53,813 bases of DNA from the IMG/VR virus record IMGVR_UViG_3300020109_000024, positions 1 through 53,813 of that record; one strand, 5' to 3'. Of the stretch, positions 4,935 to 5,011 are shown one piece after another. A model generated the notes under the pieces. It was not told the DNA's origin. It was given only the letters and a program-made list of their open reading frames with translations, and ran no database searches. The stretch comes from a virus. Every line of letters begins with the position of its first letter. Within the stretch, counting starts at the first letter, position 1. Both the position numbers and the translations under genes were made by a program.

Positions 4935-5011
4935 CGTGGCGTAGAGCAGCCCGGTAGCTCGTCAGGCTCATAACCTGAAGGTCGTCGGTTCGAATCCGAC
5001 CGCCGCAACCA
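4935..5011 (+). tRNA. Initiator tRNA-fMet (CAU)
   Basis: A complete 77-nt cloverleaf. The acceptor stem CGTGGCG/CGCCGCA has the C1xA72 mismatch that marks bacterial initiator tRNAs. The D-arm is GAGC-AGCCCGGTA-GCTC, the anticodon arm TCAGG-CTCATAA-CCTGA (CAU), the T-arm GTCGG-TTCGAAT-CCGAC, and the discriminator A and CCA are encoded. The D-loop and variable region match E. coli fMet closely. The three G-C pairs typical of initiators read A-U, G-C, G-C, a variant reported in rhizobia. It lies between the NusG-like gene and the packaging genes, read in the late direction. Confidence 0.95.

Follow-up and report, generated by a model that had tools for sequence, protein, structure and literature searches.

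Gene content and gene order

The window, by which we mean the whole stretch of DNA analysed here, is the 53,813-nt IMG/VR record IMGVR_UViG_3300020109_000024, a viral sequence in which a search for an end repeat found none. It encodes virion proteins (terminase, portal, head, and tail) along with a repressor, an ImmA-like peptidase, RuvC, a Sak4-like protein, SSB, a helicase, and a primase. Judging from the repressor, the ImmA-like peptidase, and a weak integrase match, the phage looks temperate. Terminase relatives in named genomes (12 loci) belong to Methylobacterium, Methylorubrum, Hansschlegelia, and Chelatococcus, which points to a host that is probably a member of the Methylobacterium clade. 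In the region considered here, a NusG-like gene, a tRNA, a small Ser/Gly-rich protein, and the two terminase subunits follow one another on the plus strand, with the following features:

3992..4792, plus strand: NusG-like transcription antiterminator gene (266 aa; phrog_6386, E 1.3e-16; Pfam NusG PF02357, E 1.2e-5)
4813..4897, plus strand: conserved structured leader RNA (covariance model R2, 51.0 bits; covariation)
4898..4934, plus strand: short spacer with a hairpin, GAGGC TTGT GCCTC, adjoining the 5′ end of the tRNA (from sequence)
4935..5011, plus strand: initiator-type tRNA-fMet(CAU) with encoded CCA (ARAGORN; Rfam RF00005)
5032..5358, plus strand: 108-aa Ser/Gly-rich small protein (phrog_13684, E 8.8e-6, a family of unknown function)
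5457..6119, plus strand: terminase small subunit (phrog_57, E 5.2e-21)
6049..8133, plus strand: terminase large subunit, at which the packaging and structural genes begin (phrog_15, E 1.7e-204)

A preliminary description of this DNA had placed the tRNA in the late-gene transcription unit, and the gene order, all on the plus strand, bears this out. The start codon of the NusG-like gene is uncertain, the profile match beginning at about residue 40. The spacer hairpin is no proven terminator because it lacks a T-run, and a terminator scan predicted no terminator-like site in 4898..4934. The small protein has a tail like SDSGSSCSGGDSGGGGGGD, and its homologues lie before or after the tRNA in two related loci (L018 and L224). 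Just before the NusG-like gene, positions 2735-3688 are lower in G+C and hold a methyltransferase-like ORF and an ORF with an Mrr_N domain on the opposite strand; this region is possibly an acquired cassette. At the NusG stop codon (4791-4797) there is a TAATAT-like string, seen again by eye in many relatives, which could be the −10 element of a late promoter and was not called by the promoter scan.

Identity of the tRNA

The only tRNA that ARAGORN calls in the whole window is a plus-strand tRNA-Met(cat) at 4935-5011, which Rfam RF00005 matches with 62.2 bits (E 3.7e-11). The lack of a strong 1:72 pair is a classic mark of initiator tRNAs; the acceptor stem here has C1×A72, followed by G2:C71 and U3:G70, with no Watson–Crick pair at 1:72. 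The D stem (GAGC/GCTC) includes A11:U24, the anticodon loop is CTCATAA (anticodon CAU), the T loop is TTCGAAT, and A73 is followed by an encoded CCA. The tRNA has the hallmarks of an initiator, from which charging, formylation, and use in the ribosomal P site are predicted. Both the single ARAGORN call and a position-by-position reading agree with the earlier account of a lone initiator with CAU, C1×A72, and CCA. An elongator Met or Ile2 tRNA is ruled out by C1×A72 together with A11:U24, and a chance tRNA-like sequence by the RF00005 score and by covariation among the tRNAs that occupy the same slot in other phages (see below).

The anticodon stem (29-31:39-41) consists of A-U/G-C/G-C and not of three G:C pairs. 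The preliminary description had called it rhizobial-type: the pairs were read correctly, but the stem is of the type found in fMet of Methylobacterium-clade hosts, to which the 17-nt anticodon arm is identical. In the open-licence literature we found no paper on an initiator tRNA with the three G:C pairs in Sinorhizobium. The statement in that description that the tRNA sets of phages are almost always made up of elongators is too strong, since the DNA pattern of an initiator anticodon arm occurs in at least 120 viral stretches, several of them at contig ends where they may be attachment sites.

Comparison with host initiator genes

The window tRNA shares 86-88% identity with host fMet genes in the Methylobacterium-clade and Chelatococcus genomes in which terminase relatives occur. 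Like it, alphaproteobacterial host tRNA-fMet has C1×A72, A11:U24, and the same anticodon arm (all 17 nt in the Methylobacterium clade and Chelatococcus), but 9-11 of the 77 positions differ (11 from L203, 9 from L207). These differences sit in the acceptor stem, at position 9, and in the T arm. Of the 11 that separate the window tRNA from L203, eight form four pairs compensated on both sides, one makes a U.G pair, and two fall at unpaired positions. Such a number of differences, mostly compensated stem changes, indicates neither a fresh host copy nor the remnant of an attachment site. The only integrase candidate, a weak one (40829-42037), lies about 17 kb from the tRNA if the map is drawn as a circle and about 36 kb along the record. 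An attachment site or a recent host copy is ruled out by the divergence, the compensated changes, and this distance; identity to a host tRNA gene at the attachment site had been named beforehand as the observation that would count against a phage initiator, and what we see instead is 86-88% identity and a distant integrase candidate. The hosts reached have fMet genes in several copies (the top host score is attained by 7 matches in genome G002, 7 in G004, and 5 in G003), so that a shortage of fMet by gene dosage is not obvious.

A recurrent slot downstream of NusG

As a single query against viral contigs, the window NusG found no relatives; an alignment query did. Searches of viral contigs with three alignments of NusG-like proteins gave 66 A-type, 14 B-type, and 80 C-type loci (n=160), which include related and duplicate phages, so that the counts below are of loci and not of independent events. 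Where full flanks were available, the NusG end was set to 4600 and distances are approximate; the flank length per side varies among loci. Some distant A-type loci may be ordinary NusG genes.

ARAGORN found 48 tRNAs in the 160 loci, every one of them (48/48) on the NusG strand and downstream of it: 43 are Met(CAU), two are Val(CAC), and Tyr, Gly, and Thr occur once each. A tRNA-Met called by ARAGORN lies less than 3 kb from NusG in 1/66 A-type, 5/14 B-type, and 37/80 C-type loci. The slot, although not always filled, is found in phages and prophages of the Methylobacterium clade, Chelatococcus, and Rhizobium. In phiLM21 and RHph_TM3_3_3 a NusG-like gene is followed by tRNA-Met and then terminase; RHph_N28_2 has the NusG-like gene with no tRNA annotated; and in a Chelatococcus prophage (L191) a NusG-like ORF lies 230 bp before a tRNA-Met. 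The phiLM21 tRNA-Met (5998-6074 of L059, corresponding to KJ743987 21148-21224) has a minus-strand annotation, at odds with ARAGORN and the sequence, which both place it on the plus strand.

Within the Methylobacterium genus group (111 genomes), four of the 30 NusG loci have an ARAGORN tRNA-Met (L390, L391, L399, and L406). L390 is the same prophage as L224, of Methylorubrum aminovorans, in which the tRNA is 97% identical to that of the window, NusG is 86% identical, and the same small protein is present beside a different terminase module. In L406 the tRNA is identical to the window's next to a NusG that is 68% identical over the matched part.

A conserved leader RNA

The window NusG combines an N-terminal PF02357 match with a KOW-type C-terminal domain, residues 217-263 of which match the bacterial NusG C-terminus at 52%. 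Alignment of the window with L224, L399, and L406 reveals conserved blocks 5′ of the tRNA. The leader RNA (4813..4897) has a stem with a C.C mismatch and an inner hairpin, followed by a second stem-loop, and it recurs behind many A-type NusG genes, whether or not a tRNA is present. In 20 leaders, 95.7% of the cells of this structure are paired. Two-sided cells number 24, where shuffles give 6.2 ± 2.4 and slid controls no more than 4, and most members take the same form when folded singly. By minimum energy, the fold of 4793-5031 does not stand out from shuffles (z −0.28), so the case for the RNA rests on covariation.

At E <1e-6, 27 of 100 sources, among them the window, have a match to model R2. 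The 20 leaders (alignment A6) were assembled by sequence motif and match R2 by construction, and L240 and L242 among them are near duplicates. Matches outside A6 are L233, L234, L236, L237, L241, L243, L244, L403, and L408-L410, of which L234, L237, and L241 share contigs with A6 rows L041, L011, and L012, and L409 and L410 repeat the leaders of L243 and L244. In 84 sources, comprising all 80 C-type loci plus four loci from phage records, the best score was 20.3 bits (E 0.098). As judged by R2, the leader is absent from B- and C-type loci, and its limitation to A-type NusG loci fits operon specificity of the element. No Rfam family matched 4813-4897 at the thresholds used, and promoter and terminator scans predicted no sigma-70 promoter or T-run terminator at the leader. 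We regard the leader RNA as a candidate recruitment or antitermination element for the NusG paralogue.

Directly after NusG, C-type phages have a different conserved block, GTGATTTG ... GGACC[hairpin]GGGAATACTCG ..., for example at 4678-4737 of L310. It looks structured, but its members agree poorly when folded singly and no Rfam family matched it at the thresholds used; it is a lead only.

Selection on the slot tRNAs, and their decay

Stems are paired in 92.1% of cells across 18 slot tRNAs, compared with 76.3 ± 1.2 in shuffles, none of which (0/500) reaches that value. Two-sided changes affect 11 pairs (50 two-sided cells against 13.6 in shuffles). The acceptor stem, by contrast, is open at its end, with no pair at 1:72 in 17/18 and none at 2:71 in 12/18; pair 30:40 is G-C in 18/18 while its neighbours vary. 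In a set of 20 distinct 77-nt slot tRNAs with an initiator-type D arm, which excludes the 75-, 76-, and 78-nt types (type III, L058, L296-L298) and broken copies, 1:72 is G-A in 12, C-A in 6, U-A in 1, A-U in 1, and G-C in none. The type III tRNA (75 nt) has another D stem and variable loop, yet keeps the loop CTCATAA and C1×A72 (A1×A72 in L378); it occupies the same slot in six loci (L317, L325, L332, L344, L355, and L378). It was searched for in 297 genomes of the order, in a run without a positive control, and nothing matched at 1e-8. That the 1:72 mismatch is kept on two different tRNA bodies points to selection for initiation, and these data show that the tRNA fold and the 1:72 mismatch are under selection.

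Certain slot tRNAs depart from what would be expected of an efficient fMet initiator: type II copies are also mismatched at U2×C71; the tRNA of L191 has G33; and L320 and L322 carry, about 680 bp after NusG, an otherwise intact slot tRNA with the anticodon CAC, which would read GUG. Decay is also evident. A covariance model built from the 18 slot tRNAs (R1, which the rows of A4 match by construction) was run on 87 sources, a subset of loci nearly all of which lack an ARAGORN tRNA-Met. At E <=0.01 it hit 21 loci a total of 23 times, always on the plus strand (two of these loci, L229 and L387, had already been called by ARAGORN). Many of these matches are visibly broken, with arms lost or ends truncated; L375 is a hybrid of two tRNA types, L358 holds remnants of two types in one phage, and a few, L306 and L231 among them, seem to be something different. 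Because copies are broken and only 2/27 terminase relatives match R1, the tRNA appears to be gained, kept for a while, and lost, and with so many broken copies its benefit is conditional at most.

Relation to known systems

Single tRNA-Met, tRNA-fMet, or tRNA-Val(CAC) genes are known in phiLM21-like Sinorhizobium prophages, one of which has a single tRNA-Val(CAC) (PMC12429752), and a 16-3-like prophage carries a tRNA-fMet (PMC10460002). As in the slot described here, the phiLM21-like prophages have one tRNA each, mostly Met or fMet (PMC12429752), and the phiLM21 record shares with the window the order of NusG-like gene, tRNA-Met, and terminase. In the accessible part of PMC12429752, however, the tRNAs are treated as prophage traits, untied to antitermination and with NusG unmentioned, whereas here they are tied to a leader RNA.

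The closest known mechanism to the proposed action of NusG and leader is that of LoaP of Bacillus velezensis, a NusG paralogue whose action depends on a hairpin in the leader (PMC12691694). Both systems pair a specialised NusG paralogue with an RNA element in the operon leader; the LoaP hairpin is small, whereas the RNA here is a larger, two-domain leader adjoining the NusG gene, is phage-borne in alphaproteobacterial hosts, and has a predicted role. GafZ, in the Caulobacter GTA cluster, likewise concerns antitermination of virion-type genes in an alphaproteobacterium (PMC11150451), which in our case is proposed; GafZ works with the host NusG and a putative promoter DNA element, whereas the phage system would use a factor that is NusG-like in its own right and an RNA element. 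Phage tRNAs mutated in the anticodon loop (PMC10264068) resemble some of our relatives in having changes near nuclease sites, but they belong to large sets, whereas here single initiators are found and the window copy has no change in the anticodon arm. Single tRNA-Met or tRNA-fMet genes in phiLM21-like prophages have thus been described; a search of titles and abstract beginnings in the open-licence literature turned up no paper in which a phage NusG paralogue is linked with both a leader RNA and an initiator tRNA.

Explanations for the tRNA

Our leading interpretation, held with somewhat more confidence than doubt, is that a selected initiator tRNA is optional cargo in a late operon opened by NusG and the leader RNA, and is an accessory for late translation. 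The phage NusG paralogue, made from the gene just upstream of the leader, would engage RNA polymerase at the leader RNA after its own gene and carry transcription through into the late genes. The tRNA would be the first, optional product of this read-through, cut out by host tRNA-processing enzymes, and may give extra or substitute fMet-tRNA during virion-protein synthesis. We favour this interpretation because of the initiator features, the compensated changes relative to L203, the covariation, the 1:72 mismatch on two bodies, the 48/48 slot position, the identical tRNA beside a 68% identical NusG in L406, and the covarying leader. Against it stand the patchy presence of the tRNA, its many broken copies, the U2×C71 and G33 variants, the several fMet genes of the hosts, and the lack of a predicted sigma-70 promoter or T-run terminator at the leader.

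It has been proposed in general terms that phage tRNAs evade anticodon nucleases (PMC10264068), and here the phage tRNA could replace a host initiator cut by a nuclease activated in infection, such as a VapC toxin, with changes in the arm avoiding the cut. The anticodon arm is constant in the hosts seen and variable in the phages, and the closest pairs of tRNAs differ there: the window and L224 only at 32 and 38, L305 and L307 only at 27, 32, and 38, and L310 and L326 only in six anticodon-stem positions. The 17-nt arm, which makes up 17/77 positions, accounts for 17 of 43 differences on close tree edges (binomial p 0.007, a value that ignores paired changes and kinship), although the excess shrinks to 12/35 events when a two-sided stem change is counted once. 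Enteric VapC cuts tRNA-fMet between A38 and C39 (PMC4105405), a site changed in 12/20 distinct slot tRNAs but kept in 8/20, the window included. The window arm equals that of the host, and its tRNA would therefore be cut like the host's; moreover, phages are reported to avoid, in general, encoding tRNA-fMet where VapC-LT2 targets it (PMC10264068). The earlier suggestion that the tRNA replaces a degraded host initiator thus suits some relatives with an altered arm and not the window itself. For some members of the family, though not for the window copy, nuclease evasion is a reasonable hypothesis; as the explanation of the tRNA we consider replacement of a cut initiator unlikely.

The patchy presence and many decayed copies would also suit a near-neutral passenger, that is, initiator genes picked up by recombination, held for a while, and lost. 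This is rather improbable: slot, strand, and isotype are constant in divergent phages with different terminase modules, changes are compensatory, and an identical tRNA lies beside a much diverged NusG. We think it more improbable still that the tRNA is a structured RNA of the late leader, serving as processing punctuation or as part of the antitermination signal and not in translation. It does sit straight after the leader RNA, and its fold is under selection; many phages, however, keep the leader RNA and NusG without it, it is often broken while NusG and the late genes persist, and intact copies retain features that only a tRNA needs (CAU in nearly all, an encoded CCA, and the T loop). That the antitermination signal requires the tRNA is itself unlikely, given tRNA-less and decayed copies beside intact NusG genes. 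Hardly credible, finally, is a remnant of integration in a host fMet gene, or a phage copy that makes up for a disrupted host gene in lysogeny. The phage looks temperate and tRNA genes are the integration sites of many phages, but this tRNA is internal, distant from the integrase candidate, and diverged from host genes (86-88% identity), with compensated changes; several fMet copies remain in the hosts, and phiLM21-like prophages are described as using Lys, Ser, Leu, or Pro tRNA genes and not fMet (PMC12429752).

Implications

Why phages carry tRNAs is an old question that has mostly been approached through large sets of elongators. Here a single isotype, an initiator, recurs in one slot tied to an antitermination factor, and the hosts are genetically tractable alphaproteobacteria. 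A bolder reading, which we offer as a speculation with more against it than for it, is a modular late switch of Rhizobiales phages in which each class of phage NusG would have its cognate structured leader RNA and the first product would be an initiator tRNA, remodelled by selection, that makes late translation independent of the host pool; this reading cites the 1:72 mismatch on two unrelated bodies, the switches at 32/38 and in the anticodon stem, and a CAC anticodon that would start at GUG. The intact, altered, decayed, and tRNA-less versions form a natural comparison set, and the leader RNA makes it possible to ask directly whether phage NusG paralogues work by way of an operon-specific RNA.
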